This document shows positions 16,370-52,685 of a stretch of 64,000 bases of DNA, one piece after another. Position 1 is the first letter of the stretch; each line of letters starts with the position of its first letter. Source of the DNA: Xanthocytophaga flava (lineage in GTDB: Bacteria; Bacteroidota; Bacteroidia; Cytophagales; 172606-1); NCBI GenBank assembly GCA_030068525.1, contig JASJOS010000001.1:744001-808000 (forward strand). The letters run 5' to 3'. A program made the position numbers and the translations under genes. The notes below the pieces were generated by a model. The model made no database searches. It saw only the letters and a list, made by a program, of their open reading frames with translations, and was not told the origin of the DNA.

Positions 16370-16965
16370 AAGAGTATAGCTCTTGGTTATTTTTGAGAAA
16401 TTATTCTTCCTGAGTTTGATTATTGTCCCTTTCTTCACTCTACTTGGAGCCCCTTTATTTTTTGCTTGCCCCAAAAATGAAGCAAAAAAGGGCACCTTCA
16501 CCACCAACCACGATTGAAGTTTACTTTACTCTCTTTGTGCCATGTGCTGACGAAGTTTTTAGGGAACAGCCTATATTATCTTTTGGATGCTACAAAGAGA
16601 GATTTAATTCATTTCAACGCGAACCGTTGTATCTGTGTGTTGGCAATCTTTCTGTCGCGAGGAAAGCCCATGGCTTTGCAGGTGGGAGGTTCGGCAGAAA
16701 GTGCCCTTTTTGCACACACGCAAATCTGGCTCACCAAACTCTCGTTTGGTGCCCTGTTTTTTGGGCAAGCAAAAAAGTAACAAGGCGATAAGAAGAGATA
16801 TGTTCTGGACTATAAACTAACTTTGGATACTAACAAACAAAAAATGAAGAAGCCACAGGAAGAACAATGTAAGGGATAATAAACAAACCAAGGAAGAATA
16901 ATTTCTCAAAAACGAAACCAAAGCCTATAGTCTTTCCCAAGAACATTGGCTCTGGTTTCGTACTA
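16370..16965 (-). repeat. Interspersed structured repeat, copy A (inverted core, two arms)
   Basis: One of four related intergenic elements. Reading the minus strand from 16960, it has a terminator-like hairpin (CGAAACC.AGCC arms, 16913-16960), a TTTTTGAGAAA arm, then the core: hairpin H1 (16757-16776), hairpin H2 (ACCAAAC/GTTTGGT, 16733-16750) and a long stem CTTTCTGCCG/CGACAGAAAG (16692-16701 with 16648-16657, one mismatch). A second, forward-oriented arm (hairpin 16370-16384, then TTATTTTTGAGAAATTATTC and on to about 16498) lies at the other end, so the core is flanked by opposing arms. It occupies nearly all of the 819-bp gap between the AsmA-like and M28 genes. No open frame here is credible as a gene. 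Confidence 0.8.
16913..16960 (-). terminator. Terminator of the M28 peptidase gene (part of repeat copy A)
   Basis: Stem CGAAACCAAAGCC/GGCTCTGGTTTCG (one mismatch) lies 18 bp beyond the M28 stop and on the minus strand is followed by TTTTTGAG. Confidence 0.65.
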
Positions 16966-16977
16966 TTTCATTCCAGC

Positions 16978-18273
16978 TTACGGATATTGTTGGATAAAAT
17001 CTGTAAGCAACCCAAACGTTTCCGGAAACTTAGCCAAAGGCAATGTTTCTGCCCGATCATAAATATCATGGTAAAACTTGGGATTACCCAGTGTATAGAA
17101 AAAACAGGCCTTTACACCCTTGCGTGCAAAGAAAAAATGATCAGAGTTGGGAGCATTATCCCGCTTCTGTAATTTGGTAAAGTAATGCTTCTCTTCATTG
17201 ATCTTATTGAACAAGCCGAACTCTTGTTCCAGACGCAATCCGTTTACCATCATAATCCCCTCATCTCCAGCTCCCATCAGATCCAGGTTAATCAGAAAAT
17301 GAATCTGATTCAGGGGAAATAAGGGATGGTCTGTATAATACTTAGAACCTAACAGACCCGCTTCTTCTGCTGCAAAGGCAATAAAAGCAATTGAGTATTC
17401 AGGCTGATTCTCAGGCTTTGCATAATACTGAGCCAGTTCCAGCAAAAGTGTTACACCTGATGCATTATCGTTGGCTCCCGGAAAGTAGACATCTTTGCCC
17501 AACTGCCCTAAGTGATCATAGTGGGCCGTTATAACAACAAACTCTTCCGGATGGGTTTTCCCTTCCACAAAACCAACCACATTCTGCGTCTGATAATTCT
17601 TAATAAGCTTCGCGTCTACTCTAAACTTGATTTTCTGAGCAGCAGTATCCCAGTCTTTACGAACTATCTCAAAAGTAGGATGACTCAGAGCGGCAGTTGA
17701 TACAGTAGCAGTCAGCTTTTCTTTCTGCAGTTCAATCAAAGCTTTAGCTGTATGCAGCTTTTCCAATAGATCCGGATTATCTGTAAACTTCCCATAATCA
17801 GCAGAAAGGTAAACGATAGCCTTACGTGACAGATTTTGTTTGAGAAAGGCAGATTGAACTATAGTATCCGTAAATAAACGAGGAGGTAATTGCATGATCC
17901 GGGCACTTCCCTTTCCTTTTTGGGAAATAGGATTTACCAGAAAGTCTTTTCCGGGTGCAAGATCTGTCTTATTGATCTTCAATGACACCTTTCCCGGATA
18001 GGTATTCACATCCAATGTAAAGGGCTGAAAGTAAGAGTTTCCAAATGGCTTTAACCCCATAGCTGAAAACCGGCTTTTCAGAAAATCAGCAGCAATACGA
18101 TCCCCTTGATTCACATATCCTCGTCCGTGAAATTCAGGAGAGGTAAGCGTTTTCAGAGTAGCCCGGGCGCGGGTCATATCCTGCCCTGCTGTTGTGAGGG
18201 CAATAAACAGAAACAGCCCTGTTATCGAGGGCCGTTTCTGAAGCAATAGGTTCTTTAGAGCAAAAAGCTGCAT
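16978..18273 (-). CDS. Secreted M28-family zinc aminopeptidase
   Basis: Protein of 431 residues with an N-terminal signal-like segment (SITGLFLFIALTTAGQ). The M28 di-zinc site is complete in order: His251 in VITAHYDHLG, Asp269 in FPGANDNASG, the catalytic/zinc Glu pair in FAAEEAGLLGS (303-304), Asp331 in NLDLMGAG, and a C-terminal His in NSDHFFFARKG. It probably releases amino acids from peptides in the periplasm or outside the cell. The region before the catalytic domain (residues 95-240) is long enough for a PA-like insert, but I cannot confirm the fold. gcvH lies 34 bp upstream on the same strand, so the two may be co-transcribed. Confidence 0.93.
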   Translation of the reverse strand: MQLFALKNLLLQKRPSITGLFLFIALTTAGQDMTRARATLKTLTSPEFHGRGYVNQGDRIAADFLKSRFSAMGLKPFGNSYFQPFTLDVNTYPGKVSLKINKTDLAPGKDFLVNPISQKGKGSARIMQLPPRLFTDTIVQSAFLKQNLSRKAIVYLSADYGKFTDNPDLLEKLHTAKALIELQKEKLTATVSTAALSHPTFEIVRKDWDTAAQKIKFRVDAKLIKNYQTQNVVGFVEGKTHPEEFVVITAHYDHLGQLGKDVYFPGANDNASGVTLLLELAQYYAKPENQPEYSIAFIAFAAEEAGLLGSKYYTDHPLFPLNQIHFLINLDLMGAGDEGIMMVNGLRLEQEFGLFNKINEEKHYFTKLQKRDNAPNSDHFFFARKGVKACFFYTLGNPKFYHDIYDRAETLPLAKFPETFGLLTDFIQQYP

Positions 18274-18307
18274 GGTTCATTGAAATAAACAACCAAAGAA
18301 ACAGATA

Positions 18308-18685
18308 TTAACCTACCAATGCACTGTATGCATCTGCAGACAGAAGTCCATCCAGTTGGGATGCCTCAGAAATAGAGATCTTTACCATCCATCCTTTTCC
18401 ATAAGGATCAGAATTTACCAACTCAGGCGCAGTGTTCAGATCTGCGTTAAACTCCAGTACAGTACCAGACACCGGAAGATATAGATCAGATACCGTTTTT
18501 ACAGCCTCTACAGTACCAAATATCTCATCTTTAGCGACTTCCTGTCCTACAGTATTAATATCTACATAGACAATATCGCCAAGCTCACGCTGTGCAAACT
18601 CTGTAATTCCTACATAAGCAACATCGCCTTCAATGCGTATCCATTCGTGTTCTTTGGTGTACTTCAATTCACTTGGAAAGTTCAT
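18308..18685 (-). CDS. gcvH: Glycine cleavage system H protein
   Basis: Lipoyl carrier of 125 residues that shuttles the aminomethyl group of glycine between the P, T and L proteins. The full family pattern is visible: [34 protein letters not shown], then [19 protein letters not shown] with the lipoylated Lys63, and [13 protein letters not shown] near the C-terminus. Length and start agree with the family. gcvT and gcvP are not nearby, which is common in Bacteroidota. Confidence 0.97.
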
Positions 18686-18996
18686 AAATAAGGTTCAAGG
18701 TTAAAAGTTAAAATAGAAATGTGAGGAAATCGTATCGGATTTCAAACAGACGGTTCGATAAAAATTTATAGTTATGTCCGAAAGTCCAATATCTTCTACA
18801 TAAATTTACACAACAAGATAAAACCTTATACGTTGTGACATAAGCCGGATTACCTTTCGGGTAGTTTTTCTGTATTAATGATATCTGCTTTTGTGGCGGT
18901 AAAGATAAACAGAAAAACAAAACAACAGAACGTTTAAGTAAGTTTGGTTGTTAATGACAACTTCTAGCCAAGGTAAAATTTAACTTAAAGATCAAA
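18686..18996. other. Divergent intergenic region gcvH / ABC gene
   Basis: About 310 bp between divergent starts. A TAAGTTTG at 18939-18946 matches the Bacteroidota -7 consensus TAnnTTTG 51 bp before the ABC start, but no convincing -33 TTG accompanies it. Nothing else is recognised. Confidence 0.35.
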
Positions 18997-21213
18997 ATGG
19001 ACAAAAGAAAAATCACAAAACTATTACAAAAGATCGCAGAGCTGTCGGGGCAAAAAGTCACGCCCATGCAACTCAGCGGAAACGATCATCAGCTTGATAG
19101 AGAATATACAATAAAAGACATTCATAAATTTATTGATGAACTAACCTATAAAGGACAAAAGGCAGGCCTTACATTCTTACAAAATCATTTACGCCCTGAA
19201 GAAGTAGCCTCTTTTCTGGAAAATATAACCTTTCCTGTTATCTTTTTCCAACAGATTAGTCCTGACAAAATAGAACCATTGCTTATCTACAGAGACAAAA
19301 ATGATGATCTGGTTGGAGAATATCCCGATTCGGAAACTGTATTTAAAGAATCTCAGATACGTGATCTAAGCCGACAATTCCTGACTCAACAACAGGCAAC
19401 AGATCCCCGACAAAATGGACACGTAATCTTTGTAACTTCATTTCCGGTTCACTATCTCGCCGATCAGCCAACAGGAGATGAAAATAAAGAAACCCTTGCG
19501 CCTCCTACTCCACTCAAAAGGTTACTCAACTTATTAGGCTCCGAACGAAAAGATATCTCCTATATATATGTCTATGCTATTGTAGTAGGTTTAATCAGTC
19601 TGGTGCTTCCTTTAGGGATTCAGGCAATGATCCGACTTATATCCGGTGGGATGATCTTTAGTTCAGTAGTCGTAATTATTACTGTTGTTATCATTGGATT
19701 ATTGGCATCTGGTGGCTTACAGATCATGCAAATCTCCCTGGTTGAGATCTTGCAGCAACGTATTTTTGCCAAAGCTGCATTCGAATTTACGTACCGTGTT
19801 CCCAAAATCCGGTTGGATGCTTTATCCAAATACTATCCTCCGGAATTAATGAACCGTTTCTTTGATGTGATCAATGTGCAGAAATCACTACCCAAGCTAT
19901 TGGTGGATCTTACAGGGGCTGTACTTCAGATTTTGTTTGGATTAATTTTGTTGTCTTTCTACCATCCTTTCTTTCTTGCATTTAGTGTATTACTGGTAGG
20001 CATCATTGCCCTAATCTTTAAAATAACAGGTCCAAAGGGTTTGAAGACCAGCTTGACTGAATCGAAGTATAAATATAAGATTGTCTACTGGCTTGAAGAG
20101 ATTGCCCGTACTGTCAACAGTTTTCGTCTGGCAGGCGATACTAATCTGCATATGCAAAAGATGGACGACTATGTAAGTAACTATCTTTATTACCGGAAAA
20201 GTCATTTCAGTGTGTTACGTACCCAACTGATTTATATTGTTATTTTTAAGGTATTAATCATTGGGGGTTTACTTATTCTGGGCACCCTGCTGGTGGTAGA
20301 CCGCCAGATTACGCTGGGTCAGTTTGTAGCCTCTGAGATCGTAATAGTACTGGTAGTGGCTGCGGTAGAAAAGATTATTGTCAATATGGACACTGTCTAT
20401 GATTTGCTTACAGCTGTAGAGAAAATAGGTACAGTAACCGATATGCCACTGGAAAATGAAAGAGGAGCACCCCTTGAATTAAATACAAACAGCCAGGGCA
20501 TGGAAGTAGCCATCAAAGACCTCTGGTATCGGTATGCAATGGGAGACAAGGCATTGGAAGGCGTTAGTTTCACGATCAAAGCTGGTGAAAAAGTAGCTAT
20601 TGCAGGGATGCATGCAGCAGGCAAACACACATTAGCTAAGTTACTGGCAGGTGTTATGACTGATTACACAGGTAGCATTACCTACAATCAGATTTCCTTG
20701 CGGGATATTCATCCGAGTTCCCTGCGACCTATAGTATCCAATTACCTGTTTGAAGATGCAGTTTTTTCTGGTTCTATTCTTGAGAATGTGGCAATGAATC
20801 GTCCAGGCATCAGCTATGAGGATGTCCGCTGGGCACTGACTAATGTCGGTCTGCAACATTATATGAACAAACTACCGGAAGGTCTCTATACACATATTGG
20901 TGCAGATGGACAACATCCTTCAGAAGGGGTTACACATAAAATACTCTTTGCCAGAGCTATTGTTTCCAAACCCAAACTACTGGTAGTAAAGGACACTTTA
21001 CCTGAAATGTGCCGTACAGACCGTACTCAACTGATTCAGTTTATGACCAGTCGCGAAATGCCATGGACGCTGGTTGTAGTAAGTAATGATGCTATGCTGC
21101 TGTCACAATGTGATAAGGTTCTTGTTTTTGATGACGGACATCTGGTTACCCAGGGTTCGTATCAGCAAGTGAAGGATCATCCTGTATTGCGGGAAGCCAT
21201 TTTGCAGGATTAA
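18997..21213 (+). CDS. ABC transporter-like protein of a type I secretion operon, with degenerate ATPase motifs
   Basis: Protein of 738 residues in exporter layout: about 170 residues of N-terminal domain without an obvious C39 catalytic Cys, a six-helix membrane domain (about 190-440) and a nucleotide-binding domain (about 505-738). The start fits an ATG after an A-rich leader. In the NBD every catalytic motif is altered. Walker A reads GMHAAGKH (537-544, His in place of Ser/Thr), the Q-loop position is Phe585, the signature LSGGQ is PSEGV (641-645), Walker B is LLVVKD (Lys665 at the Asp position, Asp666 at the Glu position), and the H-loop His is Asn697. HlyD- and TolC-like genes follow. 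It may be a pseudo-ATPase partnering another ABC subunit, or an atypical family; transport by ATP hydrolysis alone looks unlikely. Confidence 0.85.
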   Translation: MDKRKITKLLQKIAELSGQKVTPMQLSGNDHQLDREYTIKDIHKFIDELTYKGQKAGLTFLQNHLRPEEVASFLENITFPVIFFQQISPDKIEPLLIYRDKNDDLVGEYPDSETVFKESQIRDLSRQFLTQQQATDPRQNGHVIFVTSFPVHYLADQPTGDENKETLAPPTPLKRLLNLLGSERKDISYIYVYAIVVGLISLVLPLGIQAMIRLISGGMIFSSVVVIITVVIIGLLASGGLQIMQISLVEILQQRIFAKAAFEFTYRVPKIRLDALSKYYPPELMNRFFDVINVQKSLPKLLVDLTGAVLQILFGLILLSFYHPFFLAFSVLLVGIIALIFKITGPKGLKTSLTESKYKYKIVYWLEEIARTVNSFRLAGDTNLHMQKMDDYVSNYLYYRKSHFSVLRTQLIYIVIFKVLIIGGLLILGTLLVVDRQITLGQFVASEIVIVLVVAAVEKIIVNMDTVYDLLTAVEKIGTVTDMPLENERGAPLELNTNSQGMEVAIKDLWYRYAMGDKALEGVSFTIKAGEKVAIAGMHAAGKHTLAKLLAGVMTDYTGSITYNQISLRDIHPSSLRPIVSNYLFEDAVFSGSILENVAMNRPGISYEDVRWALTNVGLQHYMNKLPEGLYTHIGADGQHPSEGVTHKILFARAIVSKPKLLVVKDTLPEMCRTDRTQLIQFMTSREMPWTLVVVSNDAMLLSQCDKVLVFDDGHLVTQGSYQQVKDHPVLREAILQD

Positions 21214-21241
21214 GTCCAGTTTTGTTCTCACACAATCTGTT

Positions 21242-21305
21242 TTGCATCATTTTTGATAGGTGATGCAAGACACTTTCCAGGACGAGGTAAAAACATTGAC
21301 CTCGT
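21242..21305 (+). other. Two stem-loops in the ABC-hlyD gap
   Basis: TTGCATCA/TGATGCAA (21242-21249 with 21261-21268) and ACGAGGT/ACCTCGT (21282-21288 with 21299-21305). No T-run follows either, so they look more like processing or attenuation structures than terminators. The 234-bp gap contrasts with the overlapping hlyD-tolC junction. Confidence 0.4.
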
Positions 21306-21447
21306 AAATGAAGTTAAACAGATAATGAACAAAAATCTGATCTTTTCTACGAGATCCAGGTGAGAGGACTATAACCGCTCACCAACTCTTGTTTAGAAGG
21401 ATTAAACCTTAGTTTATTTTACACATTCAAGTATAAACCGCCTCCGT

Positions 21448-22830
21448 ATGTTACATATATCGAATAACAATATAGATTCTCATGAAATCGAAAAGAAGGT
21501 CTATGCCCTGCAGACCTTAGGGACACCCCGATCTGGCAGGGTAATAGCCTATTGGTTAATAGGAATATTCGTTTTCTTCTTCTTATGCCTTTTCCTGCCC
21601 TGGCAGCAGAATGTTCAGGGATATGGGTATGTCACAGCGTTTGCCCCAAAAGATCGTCCACAAACAATTCCCTCTGTTATTGCCGGACGAATTGAAAAAT
21701 GGTATGTACAGGAAGGCCAGAAAGTAAGTGCAGGAGATACTATCCTGGTTATTTCAGAGGTAAAAGATGAATACTTTGATCCACAACTACCTGAGCGTCT
21801 ACAGGAACAGATTAAAGCCAAAAATGAAGGGATTGCAGCTACTCAGACTAAAATTAATGCACTGGAAGATAATATTGCAGCCTTACAAAACGGTTTGAAA
21901 TTTAAACTACAACAAGCGGCCAACAAATTGCAACAAGCTCGCTTTAAATTGCAGATGGACAGTGCCGATTATGAAGCAGAGAAAATAAATATGCAAATTG
22001 CTCGCCGCCAATTTCAGGCAGGTGAAAATATGTACAATGGCCAGTTAATTTCTCTGGTAGACTTTGAAAAGCGAAAAGCCAAGCTGCAGGAAACACAGGC
22101 CAAGCTGATTGCCTACCAAAATAAAGTAGATGTAGCCCGTAATGAGATTATCAATGCTCAGATTGAATTGAGCTCTATCCGAGCAGATTATGCAAAAGAG
22201 ATCTCCAAAGCGCAATCTGATAAAAGTTCAGCAGTTTCCTATCTGGCAGACGCACAAGGTGAACTATCCAAACAGCAAAACAAATATTCCAGTGTACAGG
22301 TACGGATCAAAAACCGGGCAGTCATTGCGCCACAGGATGGATATGTTGTAAAAGCACTGAAAGCGGGGGTTGGTGAAACGTTAAAAGAAGGAGATCCGGT
22401 GGCTACGATTCAGCCAGCACAACCCGCTAAAGCAGTAGAACTCTATGTAAAAGCAATGGATGTGCCTCTGCTTGAGAAAGGTCGTATGGTGCGTTTGGAG
22501 TTTGATGGATGGCCTGCATTACAGTTTTCCGGATGGCCGAGTGTATCTGTAGGTACATTTCCTGGACGTGTGGCAGTCATTGACTATGTTAATAGTAAGG
22601 ATGGTAAATACAGGATTCTGGTTACGCCTGATAATGAGGAAGAAGAATGGCCAGAGCAATTACGTCTTGGGTCGGGGGTAAGTGGCTTTGTAATGTTGAA
22701 TGATGTACCTGTATGGTATGAAATCTGGCGGCAGCTAAATGGCTTCCCACCAAGTTTGCAGAGTCCAACAGCGGGAGCAGAAGATTCAGTTGATAAAAAG
22801 AAGGAGGGAGAGAAAGATGCGAAGAAATAG
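21448..22830 (+). CDS. HlyD-family membrane fusion (periplasmic adaptor) protein
   Basis: Protein of 460 residues that should bridge the inner-membrane ABC protein and the outer-membrane TolC-like channel. It has a short cytoplasmic N-terminus, one transmembrane helix (about residues 31-50), and the first lipoyl half-motif (VIAGRIEKWYVQEGQKVSAGDTILVI, about 77-102). A long Ala/Lys/Gln-rich coiled-coil hairpin (about 115-280) follows, then the second lipoyl half (RAVIAPQDGYVVKALKAGVGETL). The beta-barrel/membrane-proximal part comes last, with a Lys/Glu-rich tail. The last 14 bases overlap the start of the TolC-like gene, which implies translational coupling. Confidence 0.93.
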   Translation: MLHISNNNIDSHEIEKKVYALQTLGTPRSGRVIAYWLIGIFVFFFLCLFLPWQQNVQGYGYVTAFAPKDRPQTIPSVIAGRIEKWYVQEGQKVSAGDTILVISEVKDEYFDPQLPERLQEQIKAKNEGIAATQTKINALEDNIAALQNGLKFKLQQAANKLQQARFKLQMDSADYEAEKINMQIARRQFQAGENMYNGQLISLVDFEKRKAKLQETQAKLIAYQNKVDVARNEIINAQIELSSIRADYAKEISKAQSDKSSAVSYLADAQGELSKQQNKYSSVQVRIKNRAVIAPQDGYVVKALKAGVGETLKEGDPVATIQPAQPAKAVELYVKAMDVPLLEKGRMVRLEFDGWPALQFSGWPSVSVGTFPGRVAVIDYVNSKDGKYRILVTPDNEEEEWPEQLRLGSGVSGFVMLNDVPVWYEIWRQLNGFPPSLQSPTAGAEDSVDKKKEGEKDAKK

Positions 22831-24373
22831 CCAGACACATAAGGTCTTTGGCTGGCAATCGCGCTTTGCAGTCAAAGCACGCATTTTATCTATCACAAGA
22901 ATGCTTATTTTCTGTTTGTATGTTCTGTTTCAGGGATTGCCTTTTACTGCTTCAGCTCAGTTGGCATCAGACAAAAAGCCAACAACAACGGTTGAGTCTA
23001 AAACCATGAGCAGTCAGGATTTTCTTCAACGAATTTTAAAGTATCATCCTGTAGCCCGGCAAGCAGCCTTATTAAGTGAGCAAGCGCGGAATGAGATTCG
23101 GTATGCAAGAGGTTCTTTCGACCCTAAACTGGAAGCCAATTATGAGAATAAAGAATTGAAAGGATCTACCTACTATCATCGATGGGATAGCCAGTTGAAG
23201 ATTCCTTTCTGGGTTGGAGAGATAAAAGGTGGATTTCAGCGTGGTGTAGGCAACTATATCAACAACGAGAATTATACAAGTACCAGTGGATTAATCTTTG
23301 CCGGAGTCTCTATTCCGCTACCCATCAGCCAGGATTTCCTGATAGACCAACGCCGTAGTACACTCCGTCAGGCCCAGGTATTTCGTAATATTGCCGAAGC
23401 AGATCGCGTAAAGGAAATCAACAAACTGGTTTTCAATGCGACTAAAGAATACTGGGAATGGTATCTGGCTCACAACGAATACACAATGTTGCGTGAAAAT
23501 TACGAACTAGCCAATATACGTTATAAAGCAGTAAAAGGTCGTGTTGTAGAAGGTGATCTGGCAGGCATTGACTCAGTAGAAGCACAAACCATATTGCAAG
23601 ACCGTCTGATCCGTCTGGCACAGGTAGAAGTAGATTTATTGAATGCTCGTATCCGGTTGTCAAACTATCTGTGGGGCGAAAATGATACTCCATTAGAGAT
23701 GCCCTCAGATATTGCACCTGAACAATTCGATGTAACCCATAGAGTAGAAATGGAAGCTACTCTGATACGTCTTCGGGATATGGCACAAGCAAACCATCCG
23801 GAATTGCAAAAATTGACTTTTAAAAATGAACAGCTTACTATCGAAAGACGCTTTTTACGAGACCGTTTTAAACCAAACTTACGGGTTAATTACAATTTAT
23901 TGAGTAGCCCTACGTATAATACAGACGGCCGTATTTTACCTTCGACAGTGGATATGGCTTATTTGCAAAACAACTATAAGTGGGGATTTGAGTTTAGTTA
24001 TCCTTTGTTTTTACGAAAAGAACGAGGCAAGCTGGCTCTGAATGAAGTAAAGATTGAACAAAACAATCTGGAACGTCAGCAAACGTCCCGTGAAATTGCA
24101 AACAATATTCAAACTACCTATAATGATCTGCGGAACCTGGATTCGCTGATTCGGCTCCAACAGGTTAACATTGCCAACTATCGACGGTTACGGGATGCAG
24201 AGGTACAAAAGTTTGAAAATGGAGAAAGCTCTCTGTTTCTCATTAACTCACGGGAAACCAAGTATATCGATGAGCAGATCAAATTGTTTTCTCTGAAAAC
24301 CAAATATGCAAAGGAACGAGCAGAACTGCTTTGGTCAGCAGGCTTGTCCGACTGGAATCAGTTAGCTGAATAA
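22817..24373 (+). CDS. TolC-family outer membrane channel
   Basis: Outer-membrane efflux/secretion channel of 518 residues. I choose the ATG at 22817, inside the hlyD end, because it is preceded by an AAGGAGGGAG ribosome-binding site and leads to a signal peptide (ILSITRMLIFCLYVLFQGLPFTASAQ). TolC features include SSQDFLQRILKYHPVARQAALLSEQARNEIRYARGSFDPKLEA, long amphipathic helices with repeated heptads, and the second-repeat SYPLFLRKERGKLALNEVKIEQNNLERQ and ETKYIDEQIKLFSLKTKYAKERAELLWSAG segments. It completes the ABC-HlyD-TolC set. No obvious secreted substrate is encoded next to it; the repeat copy B follows at 24427. Confidence 0.93.
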   Translation: MRRNSQTHKVFGWQSRFAVKARILSITRMLIFCLYVLFQGLPFTASAQLASDKKPTTTVESKTMSSQDFLQRILKYHPVARQAALLSEQARNEIRYARGSFDPKLEANYENKELKGSTYYHRWDSQLKIPFWVGEIKGGFQRGVGNYINNENYTSTSGLIFAGVSIPLPISQDFLIDQRRSTLRQAQVFRNIAEADRVKEINKLVFNATKEYWEWYLAHNEYTMLRENYELANIRYKAVKGRVVEGDLAGIDSVEAQTILQDRLIRLAQVEVDLLNARIRLSNYLWGENDTPLEMPSDIAPEQFDVTHRVEMEATLIRLRDMAQANHPELQKLTFKNEQLTIERRFLRDRFKPNLRVNYNLLSSPTYNTDGRILPSTVDMAYLQNNYKWGFEFSYPLFLRKERGKLALNEVKIEQNNLERQQTSREIANNIQTTYNDLRNLDSLIRLQQVNIANYRRLRDAEVQKFENGESSLFLINSRETKYIDEQIKLFSLKTKYAKERAELLWSAGLSDWNQLAE

Positions 24374-24428
24374 GATTGTATACAGGTCTAAGGATTACAT
24401 GATTGATCCCAAATTTTGGATATGAGTA

Positions 24429-24471
24429 AAACCCAAGCCTATGCTTTTAAAAATAGTGTAGGCTTGGGTTT
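24429..24471 (+). terminator. Terminator of the tolC-like gene (5' hairpin of repeat copy B)
   Basis: A 13-bp stem AAACCCAAGCCTA/TAGGCTTGGGTTT followed by ATTTTTGAG, 55 bp after the stop. Confidence 0.7.
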
Positions 24472-24719
24472 ATTTTTGAGAAAGCTCTCTTCCTGCGTTT
24501 GTTTATTATCCCTTTTGTTCTTCTTCCACAGGCTCCTTCCTTTTTACTAGCCCAAAAATAGGGCACCAAACGAGAGTTTGGTGAGCCAGATTTGTGTGTG
24601 AGCAAAAAGGCACTTTTCTTCAAACCTTCTGTCCGCAAGGCCAAAGGACAACCCTTATCTTGTCCCATATCTTTTTTAATTTTGCAGGTTTTAGGAAAAA
24701 TTCTCTTTTACCCTTGTCC

Positions 24720-24845
24720 CCTCCCTGTCCTCCTGAAAGGAACTCGTGGCAAGACCGGCGGCCTGTCCGACTGGAAAATATTCTTTCTCTCCAAAAACGA
24801 ACACAACTCTATTTGTCAAGAGATCCTTTCAGGAGGACAGGGAGG
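24720..24845. repeat. Perfect 22-bp inverted repeat inside copy B
   Basis: CCTCCCTGTCCTCCTGAAAGGA at 24720-24741 (left arm, 22 nt; first 20 CCTCCCTGTCCTCCTGAAAG) is repeated as its exact reverse complement at 24824-24845, spaced by 82 bp. It lies in the segment that interrupts repeat copy B, and resembles the ends of a small non-autonomous element, though no flanking target duplication is evident by eye. Confidence 0.7.
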
Positions 24846-25273
24846 ATGTTTTTTCTTTATTTACAAACCTCATTTCCACAAAATATAGAACAGGATAAGA
24901 CCAACCTCGCGAAGAAAAGATTGCCTACACACTTACACTGCCTTTCACAATTGAAGTTATCGCAACCCTCTTTGTAACTTATTTATTTCACTTCAAAGTC
25001 AAATCCTTTTACTCAAAATTTGGAGCGACTTATATAGTTGGTTATTCTACTCTAATTATCCTATTCCCCATCTTCTCTCTTGTGCAACCATGTAGTACAA
25101 AGCTAATAACCACACCTTTACAAATCAACGCATTAAACACAAACTAAACAACTGACGATCAATACAATAAAGCAATAAAAATTCATTAAAAAACAAAGTA
25201 AAACATAGCACTATTTTTCGTATCTTTAAAGTACCTAATTCAATCAGCAAACGTTTAAACACTTAGTATCTAT

Positions 25274-29196: not shown

Positions 29197-30696
29197 ATGA
29201 AGACGTACCCATTTAAATCAGTAGTTTTTGCGGCTATGATAGGCTTGGGGGGGGTCATGTCGTGTACACAATCACAATATGCACAGAAAGGCGATAGTGA
29301 TGATCTGTATTATTCTTCCAAGGATAAACCTGTTACCCGATACGCCTCTTCAACTGAAGTTGCCCCCAATACATCCGGAAATTCAAAAAATCAAAAAAAT
29401 CTTAATCCGGATTATTTGACGCAATATAGCCAGCAGTCACAACAATATAGTGGCAATAACCAAAGACAAGTTCAGGATACAACAGGAGATACCTATTATG
29501 ATCCTAATTATCAGGATAGTGATCTGATCACAGCAGATAATGCTACATTAGGTCGTCGTCGTACTACCAGTTATGGATATAACAGTGTATATCCAAACTA
29601 CAACAACTACTACGCTAACAACTATTATGGCAATTCCTGGTATGATCCTTACTATGGCTCAAATTGGGGATACTCTAATTGGGGCTACCCTTATTATGGT
29701 TCAAGCTGGGGATATCCTTACTATGGTGGAGGTTGGGGATATAGCCCCTGGGCATCATCCTGGTGGGGACCTGGTATAAGTGTAAGTATCGGCTGGGGCA
29801 GACCATACTGGGGCTGGGGCGGTGGTTACTATGCCCGTGGTTGGGGGTATGATCCTTACTGGTATGGGTATAACTCTTATTGGGGTAGCCCTTATGGATA
29901 TTATGGTTACTATGGTGGATATTACAATAACTATTATAACTACTATGGTGGTTCACGTACCAATGTAGTATGGGGCCGTTCAAATGGCACTGGTTATACA
30001 GGAAGTCGCTCAGAAAATACTGTTTATAGAAATTATGGTTCCAGAGGAAGCAGAAGTAACACTGTTGTAAATGAGAACTTTGTAAATGGATCAGGAGGTA
30101 GAGGAGGTAGAATGGCGTCAACAGATAACGCGGTAAATAATTCAGGTTCTTCTCGTCCTGCAAGAAATAGCATGATTGCCAATCCAAGAGGTAGCTCTAA
30201 TGATGGCTTCTCTTCTTCAGGCCGCTCTTCCTCTTCCATGTCTGATACTCGTGCAGTAAGACCTCGTGGTACGGATTATAGCAACAATAGTGGTAACGAT
30301 TTCAATTATCGTCGCAGTGACTATAGCAGTGTAGGAGGCAGAAGCAGCAGTTATTCTAATAATGGTTATTCAAACTCTGGTAGTCAGCCTGTAACCCCAT
30401 ATAACTCACGTCCAAGCCGCAGTTCTAGCTCTAACAGTGGTAGCTGGAATACTCCTAGCAATAATTCCAATTCTGGAAGTAGCTGGGGTGGAGGTCGTAG
30501 CAATAGCAGCAACAATAGTGGTAGTTGGAGTACTCCTAGCAATAATAATTCTGGAGGCAGTTGGGGTGGTCGTAGCAGTGGTGGTAATAGTGGAGGAGGT
30601 AGCTGGGGTGGCGGCGGAGGTGGCCGTAGCAGTGGTGGTTCCTCAGGTGGAGGTGGTAATAGCAATGGTTCTCCAACACGTGTTCCTCGTAGATAA
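29197..30696 (+). CDS. Low-complexity Tyr/Gly/Ser/Asn-rich lipoprotein
   Basis: Protein of 499 residues with a signal peptide and lipobox (GGVMSC, Cys at about residue 23). After a polar linker, residues about 125-255 are a Tyr/Trp/Gly/Asn field with near-repeats of YYGSSWGYP, SNWGY and GGWGY. Residues about 260-499 are Ser/Gly/Asn/Arg-rich with repeats of SSNSGSW and GGSWGGR, and the end is basic (RVPRR). No catalytic domain is present. Such composition suggests an extracellular, adhesive or phase-separating surface material; this is inference. Codon usage matches neighbours, and the antisense Pro/Leu-rich frames are shadows of the repeats. A hairpin follows at 30708. Confidence 0.85.
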   Translation: MKTYPFKSVVFAAMIGLGGVMSCTQSQYAQKGDSDDLYYSSKDKPVTRYASSTEVAPNTSGNSKNQKNLNPDYLTQYSQQSQQYSGNNQRQVQDTTGDTYYDPNYQDSDLITADNATLGRRRTTSYGYNSVYPNYNNYYANNYYGNSWYDPYYGSNWGYSNWGYPYYGSSWGYPYYGGGWGYSPWASSWWGPGISVSIGWGRPYWGWGGGYYARGWGYDPYWYGYNSYWGSPYGYYGYYGGYYNNYYNYYGGSRTNVVWGRSNGTGYTGSRSENTVYRNYGSRGSRSNTVVNENFVNGSGGRGGRMASTDNAVNNSGSSRPARNSMIANPRGSSNDGFSSSGRSSSSMSDTRAVRPRGTDYSNNSGNDFNYRRSDYSSVGGRSSSYSNNGYSNSGSQPVTPYNSRPSRSSSSNSGSWNTPSNNSNSGSSWGGGRSNSSNNSGSWSTPSNNNSGGSWGGRSSGGNSGGGSWGGGGGGRSSGGSSGGGGNSNGSPTRVPRR

Positions 30697-41880: not shown

Positions 41881-41994
41881 TCGGTAGTCAGGATTGCAAT
41901 GTGTTTGTTGATTACTTTCGATTAGAATCTTTTCTTTCTACTTATATATAGTTTCTGACTACTTCTTCCAGTATAAGTTCATAGCCCAGAACAT

Positions 41995-42225
41995 TGTTAT
42001 TCCTACCGCATGTTACTTTCTTTGCTTGCCCAAAGAAAGGGGCACCAAATGAGAATTTGGTGAGCCAGATTTGTGTGTTTGTAAAGAAAAGGCACTTTCT
42101 GCCGAACCTCCTGCCCACAAAGCCATGGGCTTTCCTCGCGGCAGAAAGAAGGCCAACACACAGATACAGCCTTTCGCGATTAAAGGAAGAATTACTCTCT
42201 TTGTAACATTTTCTCTTTTTGCTTA
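41995..42225 (+). repeat. Interspersed structured repeat, copy C (core only)
   Basis: The shortest copy, without the terminator-like arm, between the convergent rlmN and YeiH-like genes. H1 is CTTTCTTTG-CTTGCC-CAAAGAAAG (42016-42039). H2 is ACCAAAT-GAGA-ATTTGGT (42044-42061), which differs from the other copies by a paired C-G to T-A change. The long stem CTTTCTGCCG/CGGCAGAAAG (42095-42104 with 42139-42148) encloses a small hairpin AAAGCC/GGCTTT (42119-42133). The end is ACTCTCTTTGTAACA near 42207. Confidence 0.82.
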
Positions 42226-45993: not shown

Positions 45994-46129
45994 AGTATAG
46001 ACTTAAGGACGGCATACTTGAATATACTGCGAAATCGTGCCTCTAATACTGTACCAATCTTGCGAATAATCCATTATATGTTGGTATCATTTTCTTCTTT
46101 CTCTCAAGGGCATATTTTTTTTACATACA

Positions 46130-47239: not shown

Positions 47240-47347
47240 ACAGTCCATATAATTGTCATGTATAAGTTTACAGTAAACTTGAGTTTTTAAAAGATCATCG
47301 CTTATTTGTATTGCTGATTACAGACTTATCACTTCAACCCACAATTC

Positions 47348-48331
47348 ATGCGCATTCCCTTTACCCAACTGGAAAAGGAGTTCAAAAGAGTATTACTCAA
47401 ACTAGACTTTCCAGAAGAACGAGCAGCTTTCTGTGCACATATTTTTGCGTCCAATAGCCGGGATGGTGTGTATTCTCACGGACTCAATCGATTCCCCACA
47501 TTTGTGGAATTCGTAAAAGAAGGTCTGGTAAACCCAAATGCAGAACCTGAAAGGATTCAACAATTTGGCGCAACGGAAACCTGGAATGGTCATCGGGCAC
47601 CAGGTATGTACAATGCCTCAATGGCAATGAATCGGGCTATTGCACTTGCCAAAGAATATGGTATTGGCTGTGTAGCCTTACAGAATACCAGTCACTGGAT
47701 GCGTGGGGGTACGTATGGCTGGCAGGCAGCTGATGCCGGATGTATTGGGGTTTGCTTTACCAATGCGTTAGCTAGCATGGCAGCCTGGGGTGGCGTTGAA
47801 CCTACATTAGGTAATAATCCACTGGTTATTGCTGTACCACGTGCAGAAGGTCATGTTGTACTGGATATGGCGATGTCACAGTTTTCGTATGGCAAGATGC
47901 AGGAATATCAACTGGAAAACAAACAACTTCCGTTTCCGGGTGGCTATGATGATGAGGGTAAACTAAGTTATGATCCAGCTGTCATACGCAAAAACAAACG
48001 GGGTTTGCCTATTGGGTTCTGGAAAGGAAGTGGACTGGCGATGATACTGGACATTTTGCTGGTAGCATTGAGTGGTGGACGATCTACCGCAAAAATTACA
48101 GCAGATGGAAAAGAATTTGGTGTCTCTCAATGTTTTATTGCCATTCATCGTCCGGATTTACATAAAAGCCTCATCGAAGAAGTCTTGAAATATGTTAAAA
48201 GCAGTACACCCGCAGACCCAACAAAACCTATTGTTTATCCGGGCGAGAACACACTGAAAACAAGAATACAAAGTGAAAGGGAGGGGGTACTGGTTAATGA
48301 AGAAATGTGGGAGAAACTACAGAACATGTAA
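47348..48331 (+). CDS. yiaK: 2,3-diketo-L-gulonate reductase / 3-dehydro-L-gulonate 2-dehydrogenase, YiaK-like
   Basis: NAD(P)-dependent oxidoreductase of the malate/L-sulfolactate dehydrogenase family, 327 residues. It matches the E. coli YiaK pattern along its length: SRDGVYSHGLNRFPTFV, GIGCVALQNTSHWMRGGTYGWQAADAG, LGNNPLVIAVP, DMAMSQFSYGKMQ, LPFPGGYDDEGKLSYDP, KRGLPIGFWKGSGLAMILD and GVSQCFIAIH. The reaction belongs to breakdown of ascorbate/gulonate-type sugar acids, though no other gene of that pathway is nearby. Its stop directly abuts the stop of the convergent TPR gene. Confidence 0.9.
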   Translation: MRIPFTQLEKEFKRVLLKLDFPEERAAFCAHIFASNSRDGVYSHGLNRFPTFVEFVKEGLVNPNAEPERIQQFGATETWNGHRAPGMYNASMAMNRAIALAKEYGIGCVALQNTSHWMRGGTYGWQAADAGCIGVCFTNALASMAAWGGVEPTLGNNPLVIAVPRAEGHVVLDMAMSQFSYGKMQEYQLENKQLPFPGGYDDEGKLSYDPAVIRKNKRGLPIGFWKGSGLAMILDILLVALSGGRSTAKITADGKEFGVSQCFIAIHRPDLHKSLIEEVLKYVKSSTPADPTKPIVYPGENTLKTRIQSEREGVLVNEEMWEKLQNM

Positions 48332-49765
48332 TTACTCTTTTACATCAGATAAATCATGGCGGTCAAATCCGCCTTTTTCTTCTAAAAGTCTGGATATTTC
48401 ACGAGTTAGCTTATCCAAATCTTCAGTAGATGTTACCAGATGGTCAATCAATTGATTAAAACCGGTTGAATCATCTTCGAAAGGCATAATATTCAGCAAG
48501 CCCTGAAGACGACTCACATACAACCGCAATTTATGGGAATTAATAAACGCATATTCCCGAAGTTGTTCATTCTGTTTTTGCAAATCCTGCGTTCTGCGAA
48601 TGACCAGTTCTTCCAGATTCTGATTTACAGAAGAAAGAGTATCGTTCAACAGTTTAAGCTCTTTCTTCTGCTCTTCAATCTCCTCATTTCTCTTGCCTAG
48701 CAATTGGATCAATCGCTGATGCCGTTGTTTCTGATAATAAAACAAAATAGCTAACGAAGCAAGCAATATGCTGACTAACCCAAAAATAGTAAGTTGCAGA
48801 TGACGTTCTTTGGTTAAATGTGCAATATGCTCTTCTTTCTGTGCTACCTCATATCGGGTTGAGATATCGGCAATAGTTTGTGTCTGGTTATCTGAAAATA
48901 AAGTATCAGTGGCCTCTACCTGCAAACTACGATAATAAAAAGCCTGTTTAAAGTCATCAATTGCAGCATATAATTCAGAAAGAGTCAGAGATGCCTCCTT
49001 GATTCGAATCCATTGTTTGTATTGTTGGGCAATCTGCAAACTTCGTAAAGAAAGGGCTATCGCTTTGTGGTATTCTTTCTTTCTCTGATAACAAATGGCT
49101 ATATTGTTAAGTGTAGTAGGCAACAATTCCATTTTATTCAGCCTTTCTTTCTCTGCCAGTGCCTTTTCCAAATAGATCAGTGCAGTGTCTGACTCATTGA
49201 TCAACACATAGGAATAACCTATGTTGTTAAGCAACCGTATTATCTCCTCTGTATCATGCAGTGATTCACTTACTTCCAAAGCTTGCTGATAGGCATGTAA
49301 AGCCTGAGGGTATTCCTTTTTGTTAAAGTAAATACCTCCCATACTATGAAGTGCATAGGCATACTCTTTAAAATAACTAAGTTTCTGAGCCAGATTGGCT
49401 GCTTTCTGATAACAGGCAATACTCTTATCAAACATACGTTGTTTTTCCAGTATACGGCCAATATTCATATTGCTCACCATACTACCTTTGGGGTATTGAT
49501 TCACTTCAGACATAAGCAATGCCTGTTGGCTATATTCCATGGCTTTTGCATCATCAAAACTCAGATAGACTTTGCCTATATTGTTTAATACTTTGATATA
49601 GGTTGTATCACCAACCCGGCTAGCTTCCAGTATATTTTTGAGACTGTCTATTTTCTTTTGAGGAGTACTTGCAGCATGGCGAGTCTGTGCCACAAGAGGC
49701 AGAATACCAAAGAACCATACTATGTATAGAAAGAGTTTCTTCATTTTCCTGATATCAGGATTCAT
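48332..49765 (-). CDS. TPR protein with C-terminal isolated histidine-kinase DHp domain
   Basis: Protein of 477 residues with a signal-like N-terminal helix (KLFLYIVWFFGILPLVAQ) and about six or seven tetratricopeptide repeats (residues about 35-300). One membrane helix (LTIFGLVSILLASLAILFYY, about 325-345), a coiled coil (QLLGKRNEEIEEQKKELKLLNDTLSS) and a C-terminal two-helix segment with REYAFINSHKLRLYVSRLQGLL follow. The SHKLR histidine and second helix (TSTEDLDKLTREISRLLEEK) match the dimerisation/phospho-acceptor region of Bacteroidota TPR histidine kinases. The protein ends there, so the ATP-binding catalytic domain is missing. It may accept phosphate from another kinase, act as a dominant partner, or be a truncated kinase. 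Confidence 0.85.
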   Translation of the reverse strand: MNPDIRKMKKLFLYIVWFFGILPLVAQTRHAASTPQKKIDSLKNILEASRVGDTTYIKVLNNIGKVYLSFDDAKAMEYSQQALLMSEVNQYPKGSMVSNMNIGRILEKQRMFDKSIACYQKAANLAQKLSYFKEYAYALHSMGGIYFNKKEYPQALHAYQQALEVSESLHDTEEIIRLLNNIGYSYVLINESDTALIYLEKALAEKERLNKMELLPTTLNNIAICYQRKKEYHKAIALSLRSLQIAQQYKQWIRIKEASLTLSELYAAIDDFKQAFYYRSLQVEATDTLFSDNQTQTIADISTRYEVAQKEEHIAHLTKERHLQLTIFGLVSILLASLAILFYYQKQRHQRLIQLLGKRNEEIEEQKKELKLLNDTLSSVNQNLEELVIRRTQDLQKQNEQLREYAFINSHKLRLYVSRLQGLLNIMPFEDDSTGFNQLIDHLVTSTEDLDKLTREISRLLEEKGGFDRHDLSDVKE

Positions 49766-50076
49766 TCTGAGGATATCAGAGGAATTTTGCTACTATTACC
49801 TATTTTTCTTAACCATAGTTGCCTGAATACAAAAAACTAAATGGTAAAAAGGCACTAATTTTCCATATTAACAAGAAACGTCCATTTTTTTCAAACACGT
49901 CCATATAGATACATTTTACTATCTCAAATCAGAAACTCGTTTTCAGTTAATTAGCTTACTCTATTAAATAACTAGACTTTATTTTGTAGTAAGAAAGAAT
50001 CCTGTTCCAAAACGTTGGGCATCCGTATATTTTTCTCTATTTTGCTTCCTTCCCTACCACAATCAAACCTTATCCA
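49766..50076. other. Divergent intergenic region
   Basis: 311 bp between the starts of the TPR protein and the peptidase. I see no RNA gene, operator or clear promoter box. Confidence 0.5.
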
Positions 50077-52335
50077 ATGTATATGAAGAAGATTTATCTG
50101 TTTTGCCTGCTTTTGGGTCCAGTGCTGTCATTTGCACAAAGCAAAAGCATTTATGGTTACACACCACAATCTGCCTCAGCAGAATTAAAATGGGAAGAAC
50201 AGTTTGACAGTTATCTCAAAGCTTCTAATCTGGATAGCTGGATGAAAAGACTGGCAGGCCGTCCACATCATCTGGGGTCTGCTTACGGAAAAGCAAACGC
50301 AGAATTTATGCGTGACCTATTTAAAAGCTGGGGATTTGATGCTGAGATCGAAACTTATCAGGTCTTATTTCCAACACCTAAGATTCGGGTACTGGAAATG
50401 ACGTCTCCGCAAAAATTCAAGGCCAAACTATCTGAACCTGCCTTGAAAGAGGATGCCACTTCCGGACAAACCAGTGAGCAGCTACCTGTATATAACTGCT
50501 GGTCACCTGATGGTGAAGTAACGGCCGAACTGGTATTTGTGAACTATGGTGTGCCAGATGACTATGAACAACTTGAACGACTGGGAATAGATGTAAAAGG
50601 AAAAATTGTTATTGCCAAATATGGAGGCTCCTGGCGTGGTATCAAACCTAAAGTTGCTCAGGAGCATGGAGCTATCGGATGTATCATTTATTCTGACCCA
50701 AAAGAAGATGGTTATTTTCAGGGTGATGTATATCCTAAAGGACCATTCCGTAGTGCAGCAGGAGCACAACGGGGTTCTGTAGAAGATATGCCTATCTATC
50801 CGGGAGATCCTCTGACACCTGGCTATGGCGCTACTCCGGATGCCAAACGACTTGATCGCAGCGAAGCGGCCAATCTGCTTAAGATCCCTGTTCTCCCTAT
50901 TTCCTATGGAGATGCCCAACCATTGCTGGCAGCTTTAACAGGTCCTGTAGCCCCTGAAAAATGGAGAGGCGCATTGCCTATTACCTATCATATAGGTCCA
51001 GGTCCTGCCAAAGTACATCTAAAACTTTCGTTCGACTGGAAACTTGTTCCTTGTTACAATGTGATTGCGAAATTGAAAGGCAGCGAATTTCCTGATCAAT
51101 GGGTGATCAGAGGCAATCACCATGATGCGTGGGTAAATGGAGCAGATGACCCAATCAGTGGCATGGTAGCCGTACTTGAAGAAGCCCGAGCAGTTGGTGA
51201 ACTGGTAAAGGCTGGCTGGAAGCCCAAAAGAACACTGGTATACTGCGCCTGGGATGGTGAAGAACCTTCACTGATTGGTTCTACTGAATGGGCAGAACAC
51301 CATGCAGCAGAGCTTCAGCAAAAAGCGGTAGCCTACATCAACTCAGATGGCAATGGCAGAGGTTTTCTGTTTGCTGGTGGATCACATTCACTGGAAACGC
51401 TTGTCAGTGAAATTGCCCGTGATGTTACAGATCCTCAAACAGGAATCAGTATTCTGGAACGCAGCAAATCACTTCAACTTACTCACGCTGCCACCACAAA
51501 AAACAAAAAAGAGCTGTTAGCCAAAAAGAACTTAACCATAGGTGCACTAGGGTCTGGTTCAGACTACACTCCTTTTATTCAACATTTGGGTATTCCGTCA
51601 CTTAACCTGGGTTTTGGAGGGGAAAGCGAAAGTGGTGACTACCATTCTATCTATGATTCGTATGACATGTACAAACGATTTAAAGATCCCAAATTTGCCT
51701 ATGGTATTGCCCTTGTTAAAACGGGTGGCAGGGCTACACTACGACTTGCCAATGCAGATATTCTTCCTTTTGATTTTAAATCCTTCCATAAAACACTAAA
51801 TACCTATCTGGGAGAGGTGACTACATTGCTGGAAACGTTACGGGAATCAACAGATGTTGAGAATCAACTGATATCAGAGAAACGTTATGTATATGCTGCA
51901 GATCCTACAGAGAAATACATTCCTCCCACAGCTAAGTCGGTAGTACCGTATCTGAATTTTGCCAGTCTTCAGAATGCAGTGGCTGGATTGGAAAAAGCAG
52001 CTAGCCAGTATAGCGATGTACAAGTAGCCAGTATCAAAGCAGGTACCAACTGGACTCCGCTAAACCCTTCGTTGTATCGCGCAGAACAGAAATTATTATC
52101 AGACAAAGGCTTACCTCGCCGTCCCTGGTATAAACATACAATTTATGCTCCTGGTTTCTATACCGGATATGGTGTAAAGACACTTCCAGGTGTACGGGAA
52201 GCGATTGAACAACGCAACTGGGAAGAAGCACAGGAACAGATTGAAATTGCAGCTAAATCCATTCAGGCTTATACAGAGGCTATCAATGCGGTATCCTCTC
52301 AGGTAAATCCTGCTGGTGTGAGTGGTGGCAAGTAA
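50077..52335 (+). CDS. M28-family peptidase, glutamate carboxypeptidase II-like
   Basis: Secreted zinc peptidase of 752 residues with signal peptide (KKIYLFCLLLGPVLSFAQ). Layout follows glutamate carboxypeptidase II/transferrin-receptor-like proteins: an N-terminal segment, a PA insert (VFVNYGVPDDYEQLERLGIDVKGKIVIAKYGGSWRGIKPKVAQEHGAIGCIIYSDPK), the M28 core and a C-terminal dimerisation domain. Zinc ligands fit the family: GNHHDAWVNGADDPISG, CAWDGEEPSLIGSTEW, YINSDGNGRG and DYHSIYDSYDMY. It probably trims peptides outside the cytoplasm. The terminator hairpin of repeat copy D follows. Confidence 0.94.
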   Translation: MYMKKIYLFCLLLGPVLSFAQSKSIYGYTPQSASAELKWEEQFDSYLKASNLDSWMKRLAGRPHHLGSAYGKANAEFMRDLFKSWGFDAEIETYQVLFPTPKIRVLEMTSPQKFKAKLSEPALKEDATSGQTSEQLPVYNCWSPDGEVTAELVFVNYGVPDDYEQLERLGIDVKGKIVIAKYGGSWRGIKPKVAQEHGAIGCIIYSDPKEDGYFQGDVYPKGPFRSAAGAQRGSVEDMPIYPGDPLTPGYGATPDAKRLDRSEAANLLKIPVLPISYGDAQPLLAALTGPVAPEKWRGALPITYHIGPGPAKVHLKLSFDWKLVPCYNVIAKLKGSEFPDQWVIRGNHHDAWVNGADDPISGMVAVLEEARAVGELVKAGWKPKRTLVYCAWDGEEPSLIGSTEWAEHHAAELQQKAVAYINSDGNGRGFLFAGGSHSLETLVSEIARDVTDPQTGISILERSKSLQLTHAATTKNKKELLAKKNLTIGALGSGSDYTPFIQHLGIPSLNLGFGGESESGDYHSIYDSYDMYKRFKDPKFAYGIALVKTGGRATLRLANADILPFDFKSFHKTLNTYLGEVTTLLETLRESTDVENQLISEKRYVYAADPTEKYIPPTAKSVVPYLNFASLQNAVAGLEKAASQYSDVQVASIKAGTNWTPLNPSLYRAEQKLLSDKGLPRRPWYKHTIYAPGFYTGYGVKTLPGVREAIEQRNWEEAQEQIEIAAKSIQAYTEAINAVSSQVNPAGVSGGK

Positions 52336-52370
52336 TAGACATACATGAGTCATCCCGAAATTGGATGAAA

Positions 52371-52685
52371 GGAAAACCCAAGCCTATATTTTTGAAAATA
52401 GGCTTGGGTTTATTTTTCAGAAAGCTCTCTTTCTGAGTTTTATTATTGTTCCTTACTTCACTCTACTTGTAGCTCCTTCATTTTTCGCTTGCCCAAAAAA
52501 CAGGGCACCAAACGAGAGTTTGGTGAGCCAGATTTGCGTGTGAGCAAAAAGGGCACTTTCTGCCGAACCTCCAACCCACAAAACCGGGGCTTTCCTCGCG
52601 GCAGAAAGATTGCCTGCGCACAGACACAACCGTTCGCGTTTAAAGGTATATTGGCTCTCTTTGTAGCTTTTTCCTTAAACTTTAG
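52371..52685 (+). repeat. Interspersed structured repeat, copy D (complete forward copy)
   Basis: The most complete forward copy, between the convergent peptidase and DUF2723 genes. It has the 5' hairpin (52374-52411), TTATTTTTCAGAAAGCTCTC arm, TGCTTGCCC-like H1 region (weak here), H2 ACCAAACGAGAGTTTGGT (52507-52524), the long stem CTTTCTGCCG/CGGCAGAAAG (52556-52565 with 52599-52608), and the GGCTCTCTTTGTAGC end near 52665. Confidence 0.82.
52374..52411 (+). terminator. Terminator after the GCPII-like gene (5' hairpin of copy D)
   Basis: Perfect 14-bp stem AAACCCAAGCCTAT/ATAGGCTTGGGTTT followed by ATTTTTCAG; nearly the same sequence as the hairpin in copy B. Confidence 0.75.

Follow-up and report, generated by a model that had tools for sequence, protein, structure and literature searches.

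An intergenic repeat family of Xanthocytophaga flava, probably the miniature form of an insertion sequence that replaces terminators

We analysed a stretch of 64,000 nucleotides (the window) of Xanthocytophaga flava (assembly GCA_030068525.1, contig JASJOS010000001.1, positions 744,001 to 808,000, forward strand), which holds four copies, A to D, of a hairpin-rich intergenic repeat. The repeat is probably a miniature inverted-repeat transposable element (MITE) of an insertion sequence (IS) that replaces transcription terminators, and it would itself supply the substitute terminator. A preliminary description, made from the letters of the window alone, had reported the four copies, and a repeat finder recovered all of them at the same places, with segments 63-94% alike. 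All four lie between genes and each adjoins at least one gene's 3' end, as had been reported. The places were right, but the true ends had been overlooked; copies D and B reach outward to terminal inverted repeats (TIRs). Copy A, which had been taken as mainly inverted, is actually a compound of a partial plus-strand copy and a minus-strand copy. An upstream hairpin, AAACCCAAGCC...GGCTTGGGTTT-ATTTTT, belongs to the element, which also corrects that description. The features of the window copies are as follows.

16355..16542, plus strand: partial copy within copy A, tail-to-tail with the minus-strand part
About 16588..16960, minus strand: minus-strand part of copy A (profile match)
16960-16913, minus strand: terminator-like hairpin of that part, adjoining the stop codon (16978) of a minus-strand gene; fold -25.8 kcal/mol, z -6.5
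24397..25035, plus strand: copy B, 639 bp from TIR to TIR, with 3 mismatches in the 5' TIR and 6 in the 3' TIR
24429..24477, plus strand: terminator-like hairpin of copy B followed by a T-rich tail, 56 nt past the stop codon at 24373; fold -26.5 kcal/mol, z -6.9
24654..24896, no strand assigned: sequence of another repeat family that splits copy B (gap between two profile matches)
41952..42207, plus strand: copy C, without a recognisable 5' TIR or a terminator-like hairpin
52343..52699, plus strand: copy D, the most complete window copy, TIR to TIR; the 3' TIR is degenerate and was placed by eye
52335 (plus strand) and 52737 (minus strand): ends of the convergent genes on either side of copy D
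52343..52364 (C11:796343-796364), plus strand: 5' TIR of copy D, ACATGAGTCATCCCGAAATTGG, with 2 mismatches to the consensus
52374..52418, plus strand: terminator-like hairpin of copy D, a 14-bp stem (52374-52387/52398-52411) and then a T-rich tail; fold -21.4 kcal/mol, z -6.4, with covariation in helix 1
52491..52524, plus strand: H1 (GCCC/GGGC) and H2 (ACCAAAC-GAGA-GTTTGGT) hairpins of copy D
52556..52608, plus strand: long stem of copy D, CTTTCTGCCG/CGGCAGAAAG, from folding, with compensatory changes in helix 4

Both TIRs are present in window copies D and B, and copies A and C have no recognisable TIRs. An iterated profile was built from 43 loci plus the window, and its consensus of about 300 bp holds the motifs of the preliminary description in the order claimed. 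Copies A, B and D open with a stable hairpin (-21 to -27 kcal/mol, z -6.4 to -6.9) and a T-rich tail. The form of an intrinsic terminator, a stable GC-containing hairpin with a U-rich tract, is seen in these three copies and not in copy C, in which the 70 nt upstream fold with z -0.95. Copy D has a 95% identical counterpart at the same place in a sister species (G002; median protein identity to this genome 97.6%), and copy B is not in the orthologous gap of that species.

The family is large. Its standing had been made to depend on further copies in the genome, and many are present, so the family stands. We found 76 distinct clusters flanked by genes on both sides in the fetched stretches of the X. 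flava genome (G000). This count is based on gene calls that are simple longest open reading frames (ORFs) and leaves out ORFs below 110 aa, ORFs below 160 aa that overlap the element by more than 30%, and clusters without a neighbour gene; without the neighbour-gene rule there are 81 clusters. Contig C11 (814 kb), which was surveyed whole, has 11 clusters, which extrapolates to about 128 genome-wide. BLAST against the same genome gave at least 69 matches to copy D (40 of 108 candidates scored) and at least 49 to copy C (40 of 113 scored).

Lining up the flanks revealed that complete copies are bounded by 22-bp TIRs, which read ACATGAGTCATCCCGAATTTTG on the 5' side and are complementary to this on the 3' side. 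The greater extent on both sides was first evident from orthologous gaps of G002. With up to 3 mismatches the TIR occurs 82 times in X. flava, and a reversed-pattern control gave no match. It was found in 5 of 59 genomes, X. flava included: 96 matches in G002, 8 in G034 and one each in G005 and G010. It had no match in G001, a genome of the same genus whose assembly is 72% complete. Among 40 TIR pairs from X. flava and G002, 38 span 328-639 bp, and 32 of these 328-426 bp; the two longest pairs (1761 and 2938 bp) contain no transposase. Beyond these two species we collected 41 short TIR-bounded elements of 43-378 bp, three of which are the short TIR pairs of G034. Four elements of 43-72 bp are barely more than two TIRs. 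The window itself also has, at 61416-61466, a perfect 25-bp inverted repeat with 1-nt spacing soon after a plus-strand stop codon (61393). This repeat contains GAGTCAT, which is reminiscent of the TIR, and it may be either an ordinary terminator or a minimal element made of TIRs only.

The TIR is shared with transposase-bearing elements. At least 119 stretches of named public genomes hold an exact 21-base TIR, and the 80 matches listed are mostly from Saprospiraceae and Lewinella kin, Spirosoma, Arcicella and Flectobacillus, with a few labelled as Chloroflexota kin (SAR202, Thermoflexus, Anaerolineales). Pairing of TIRs in the named contigs gave 8 intact elements, 1431-1465 bp long, that each contain a single large ORF of 364-458 aa. 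The TIR is exact at both ends in seven of them, and the eighth has 1 mismatch at one end. A further pair of 1860 bp (L302) has no single large ORF and lies beyond the length limit of the survey of elements in other genera. Decayed relatives are present closer to X. flava. G005 has a decayed IS of 1583 bp (L194:3430-5012) that is bounded on both sides by the TIR, with a one-base gap in the left one; a piece of its decayed transposase frames matches the IS4-type model NF033590 (1.1e-8). G002 has a decayed transposase that ends in the TIR (4 mismatches), and a left TIR was looked for there and not found. In X. flava, a fragment of about 130 bp of the G002 IS lies beside a TIR at C13, with further matches of 37 and 33 bp; neither transposase query had a match in this genome. 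A related intact IS with a 455-aa transposase and ends AAACATGAGTCATCCC has three copies in G039, of which one is displaced or truncated on the left, and a single copy in G091.

Four of the transposases were tested, and all match PF01609 (DDE_Tnp_1) above the cut-off. They also match the NCBIfam models for IS4, IS701, IS1634 and IS1380, all below cut-off: the best score is 58.5 bits against a cut-off of 152, and none passed the cut-offs of the IS4 models (115-250). No IS1182 model, of which the library contains one, was among the matches at E<=0.01. One transposase that was compared with PDB matches Tn5 transposase (E 4e-4), and the Y-2-R-3-E-6-K spacing, the IS4-family signature, is visible in the sequence. 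The repeat has TIRs, contains neither a transposase nor a long ORF, is multicopy and intergenic, and shares its TIR with transposase-bearing elements, so that the MITE-like nature proposed earlier is borne out. We conclude that it is very probably a MITE, and that the IS group to which it belongs is the one marked by the TIR AACATGAGTCATCCCGAATTTTG and a Tn5/IS4-like DDE transposase.

The REP-like nature proposed alongside it found no support. Repeats of the REP/BIME type, which a RAYT (Y1) transposase moves, would share the many-copy extragenic palindromes, but size and long TIRs differ, and this genome has no match to PF01797, the Y1/RAYT family, though 5 of 14 control genomes match. The absence of a Y1 match contradicts this identity, which we regard as hardly credible.

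The elements are located at the 3' ends of genes. The X. flava clusters lie between convergent genes in 35 cases, co-directional genes in 34 and divergent genes in 7 of 76, against 75, 346 and 93 of 514 background gaps on C11, which include element-bearing ones (Fisher's test, convergent 2.6e-9, divergent 0.07). Loci outside C11 were picked for holding matches; C11 alone gives 6 convergent, 5 co-directional and no divergent of 11. Elements of other genera show the same pattern, with 26 convergent, 12 co-directional and no divergent of 38, plus 11 at contig edges (background 19, 76 and 32 of 127), and none lies inside a called ORF. The element's 5' edge, next to which the terminator-like hairpin lies, is a median of 56 nt from the stop codon of the gene that faces it (59 cases). 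In the 11 clusters with opposite-orientation copies the order is always plus then minus, which means that the hairpin ends face outward. Convergent bias by itself is no proof of targeting.

Two intact IS copies of G039 can be compared with G091: L210 with L344 (gene 93% identical) and L212 with L340 (88%). The empty site L344 has a terminator with the stem GCCATCATTAG..CTGATGATGGC and a T tract. At the filled site L210 this stem is gone, and the right end of the IS abuts the sequence that followed the T tract. Three further relatives (L345-L347) have a hairpin of other sequence after the same gene. The empty site L340 has the terminator AAAAAAGAGCTTGATAG..CTATCAAGCTCTTTTTTT, of which the 5' arm is lost at L212. 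L342 and L343 have terminators of other sequence at this place, and the sequence of L341 ended short of it. Two IS-occupied sites have terminators in their empty relatives, and these sites lean to replacement of the hairpin.

Presence of the MITE at the corresponding site of the other species could be tested for 18 of 81 X. flava clusters and 19 of 32 G002 clusters. The MITE is absent from G002 at 3 of the 18, and from X. flava at 4 of the 19. Four of these seven empty alleles have a strict terminator, including AATACCCTGTCACC..GGCGACAGGGTATTTTT at the G002 site of window copy B, and one has a relaxed terminator, judged by eye. As a set these sites lean in the same direction as the two IS sites. 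No strict terminator was found in the five filled alleles tested; the carried hairpin escapes that scan. Most MITEs, though not all, leave target duplications. Duplications of 2-12 nt were sought at several offsets in 35 pairs, and none was convincing: over 275 settings z did not rise above 2.7. With a freer direct-repeat score, z was 1.3 in 47 named pairs and -0.4 in 21 pairs from G002.

An ordinary MITE without target choice has to be weighed here. Such an element would insert widely, selection would spare only the insertions at gene ends, and its empty sites would have terminators because gene ends usually have them. A strict terminator lies within 100 nt downstream of 107 of 547 genes on C11 anyway (upstream, 23 of 547). 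Convergent-gene enrichment is common for ISs and MITEs generally and has been described in pneumococcus for BOX, RUP and ISs (PMC3049150). The sites polymorphic between the sister species are messy, most of their boundaries being blurred; that the MITE itself replaced the terminator there would be an inference. These observations tell against terminator replacement, as do several others. Two of the seven empty MITE alleles have no terminator at all. The left flank of L210 has diverged, so that the junction is exact only on the right, and part of the 3' arm is kept at L212. The freer direct-repeat score of the 28 pairs from X. flava is mildly above shuffles (z 2.7). Both arms of a palindrome are kept at some filled sites, clearly at L266, L238, L172, L052 and L298 and weakly at L235, L065 and L208, which indicates that insertion into a palindrome without replacement also occurs. 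The strict scan misses the carried hairpin in 32 of 50 full copies, and also in copies B and D. Finally, no complete transposase gene was found in X. flava, so that activity cannot be seen.

Against an ordinary MITE stand the lack of a convincing direct duplication, the right end of the IS at the former end of the hairpin's T tract (L210/L344), the loss of the 5' arm at L212, and nine of 49 elements in other genera that fit between convergent stop codons no more than 35 nt away on both sides. We consider this explanation rather unlikely, and on balance somewhat favour replacement of terminators by the element. As a general rule, insertion into a palindrome that keeps both its arms was rejected, being limited to the eight sites listed above, three of them weak. 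The inverted-arm score nevertheless exceeds shuffles, of which 0 of 500 reach it for X. flava, 7 for the named genomes and 32 for G002 (a weak excess).

The hairpins themselves covary. In 26 aligned long copies, 96.7% of cells are paired across 36 predicted pairs, and 16 of the 36 pairs show double-sided changes. Four of five covariation measures beat all 500 shuffles and the fifth was matched by a single one; every slid control was lower. The plus strand has 66 G.T wobble cells and 15 A.C cells. By helix the G.T:A.C ratio is 35:5 in the 5' hairpin, 2:1 in H2, 18:1 in a 5-bp helix, 6:7 in the long stem and 5:1 in the small inner hairpin. These cells are concentrated: 23 of the 35 G.T cells of the 5' hairpin fall in two pairs and 16 of the 18 of the 5-bp helix in one. 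The copies are related, and the counts lean toward pairs that the RNA model allows. The wobble bias fits an RNA function for the 5' hairpin and not clearly for the long stem.

Both covariation and wobble could be taken to indicate a family of structured 3'-untranslated-region or small RNAs, kept for an RNA function, with incidental TIRs. The preliminary description had likewise offered structured RNAs made by read-through. The strong covariation of the stems agrees with that part, but it is partly expected of palindromic DNA, and the RNA reading is not needed. The wobble bias comes from the terminator-like hairpin and essentially one pair of the 5-bp helix. Whole elements are absent from some corresponding sites of either sister species, one species can have the H2 module where the other lacks it, H2 loops have been inverted at the DNA level, and Rfam gave no family at gathering threshold for the whole window or for copy D. 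An RNA family of this kind is improbable.

Terminator-like hairpins are also found in the wider group of elements. Among 37 unrelated MITEs from other genera that share the TIR and are at least 130 bp long, 16 have a strict one, in 13 cases on both strands; the controls gave 7 among 111 flanking segments and 2 among 111 shuffles. Full copies of the window family have one in 18 of 50 cases (two on both strands), compared with 6 of 150 shuffles. The stem had to be at least 8 in this element survey and at least 7 in the scan of genes and empty alleles. The misses of the carried hairpin are probably due to its long loop. Read on the minus strand, H2 is followed by a T-rich tract and was flagged as terminator-like in B and D, so the opposite direction may be served too.

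The interior of the element is modular. H2 together with GTGAGCCAGATTTG forms an optional module, about 40 bp in length. After a length and score filter, 42 of 97 copies from X. flava and G002 have it and 55 were classed as lacking it, some of which hold a diverged H2. An apparent same-site difference in H2 between the species is seen at L042/L203, at L050/L201 and at C11:508676 and its G002 ortholog. At L196:14067-14365 and L197:5127-5420 the H2 loop is flipped (GAGA as TCTC) and the stem kept, a DNA-level event. The H2 motif had no match in public genomes, a set that may lack near kin. The H1 pattern occurs in 6 of 118 genomes, many times in X. flava and G002, four times in G005 and once each in G003, G004 and G055. 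H2-like GNRA hairpins are also present in intergenic repeats without TIRs in G001 (L081, L084, L087) and G005 (L078, L082, L085, L088), and those of G005 also hold a GCTTGCCC..GGGC core. Core-like sequence without these TIRs in G001 and G005 suggests that the interior core is older or wider than its association with the TIRs.

Switching of forms between sister-species alleles, together with whole gaps that differ with sharp edges near stop codons, might point to intergenic cassettes spread by recombination between copies and not by transposition. This leaves unexplained why elements with a transposase in other genera have identical TIRs, and we think it quite improbable as an origin. Recombination may well have reshaped copies later.

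Other repeats lie close to the element. The sequence that interrupts copy B is a window copy of a second interspersed repeat of the CCTGTCCTCCTGAAAGGA...GGTCTTGTCACGAGATCCTTTCAGGAGGACAG type with long inverted arms (window 24720-24845, L039, L043, L071, L178 and others); the repeat finder placed its arms at 24720-24752/24813-24845. A third repeat, the palindrome CCGTCGTTGGTGTTATCACCAACGACGG, often adjoins the element (L052, L060, L063, L064, L065), and at L052 the element is flanked by two of them. Elsewhere in the window, GGT/AGC-rich low-complexity tandem repeats (30433-30654) lie at the end of the ORF at 29197-30696.

We propose the following course of events for a MITE of a terminator-replacing IS. 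In the past, an IS transposase acting in trans would have mobilised the MITE copies. The copies would enter intrinsic-terminator hairpins downstream of genes, and the hairpin would be lost without a target duplication. The MITE's own terminator-like hairpin, next to the 5' TIR, would then replace the lost terminator. Since the gene loses one terminator and gains another, insertion would be nearly harmless and copies would accumulate at gene ends. Tail-to-tail compounds would direct one such hairpin at each of the two neighbouring genes.

The IS1182 family includes IS1272 of staphylococci. The closest published mechanism is the "stem-loop replacing" transposition of IS1272 into inverted-repeat structures without target duplication; two of three new insertions are downstream of genes and one is at a gene's 3' end region (PMC5678879). 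The two IS sites described above lean towards such a replacement, one of them with a clean right junction. The transposase group here is different, and what our elements add is a carried terminator, MITEs and the orphan state; the words "terminator" and "MITE" are both absent from the main text of that paper (PMC5678879). SPRITE, RUP and BOX of Streptococcus pneumoniae are likewise short interspersed repeats enriched between convergent genes, and SPRITE resembles a terminator and may be co-opted as one; as far as the available text goes, SPRITE has inverted ends of AAAA/TTTT only and no comparable empty site, unlike the 22-bp TIRs, empty sites and IS group described here (PMC3049150). BrickBuilt of Porphyromonas gingivalis is also an intergenic MITE of Bacteroidota, but it has a minisatellite interior and target duplications of variable length in three of four two-TIR copies, and BrickBuilt_5 left the neighbouring terminator intact (PMC4596501). 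The IS4 family (IS10, IS50/Tn5) shares the DDE_Tnp_1 domain and the Tn5 match; no NCBIfam family cut-off was reached. IS4-type elements make target duplications, which were not seen here. In the literature searched, which covered few subscription papers, neither the TIR nor the core letters occurred, and there was no account of this IS group, this MITE or an IS that targets intrinsic terminators, including in the available part of a MITE review (PMC10969869).

One and the same gene can have different terminators in close relatives, L210/L344 and L212/L340 being examples, and the cause is seldom known. If our reading is true, an element that exchanges terminators would be a direct source of such differences, with a built-in reason for being tolerated, and stem-loop-replacing transposition as described for IS1272 would extend to another transposase group. 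We suggest tentatively that a widespread Bacteroidota IS group and its MITEs form a terminator-swapping system, in which the transposase would recognise a folded terminator hairpin, as it may its own paired TIRs, and remove it, and the element would supply a new one. In that case the near-TIR-only elements of 43-72 bp would be mobile terminators themselves. A simple test bed would be the intact ISs, about 1.45 kb long, of named strains of Lewinella, Flectobacillus, Spirosoma and Aureispira.

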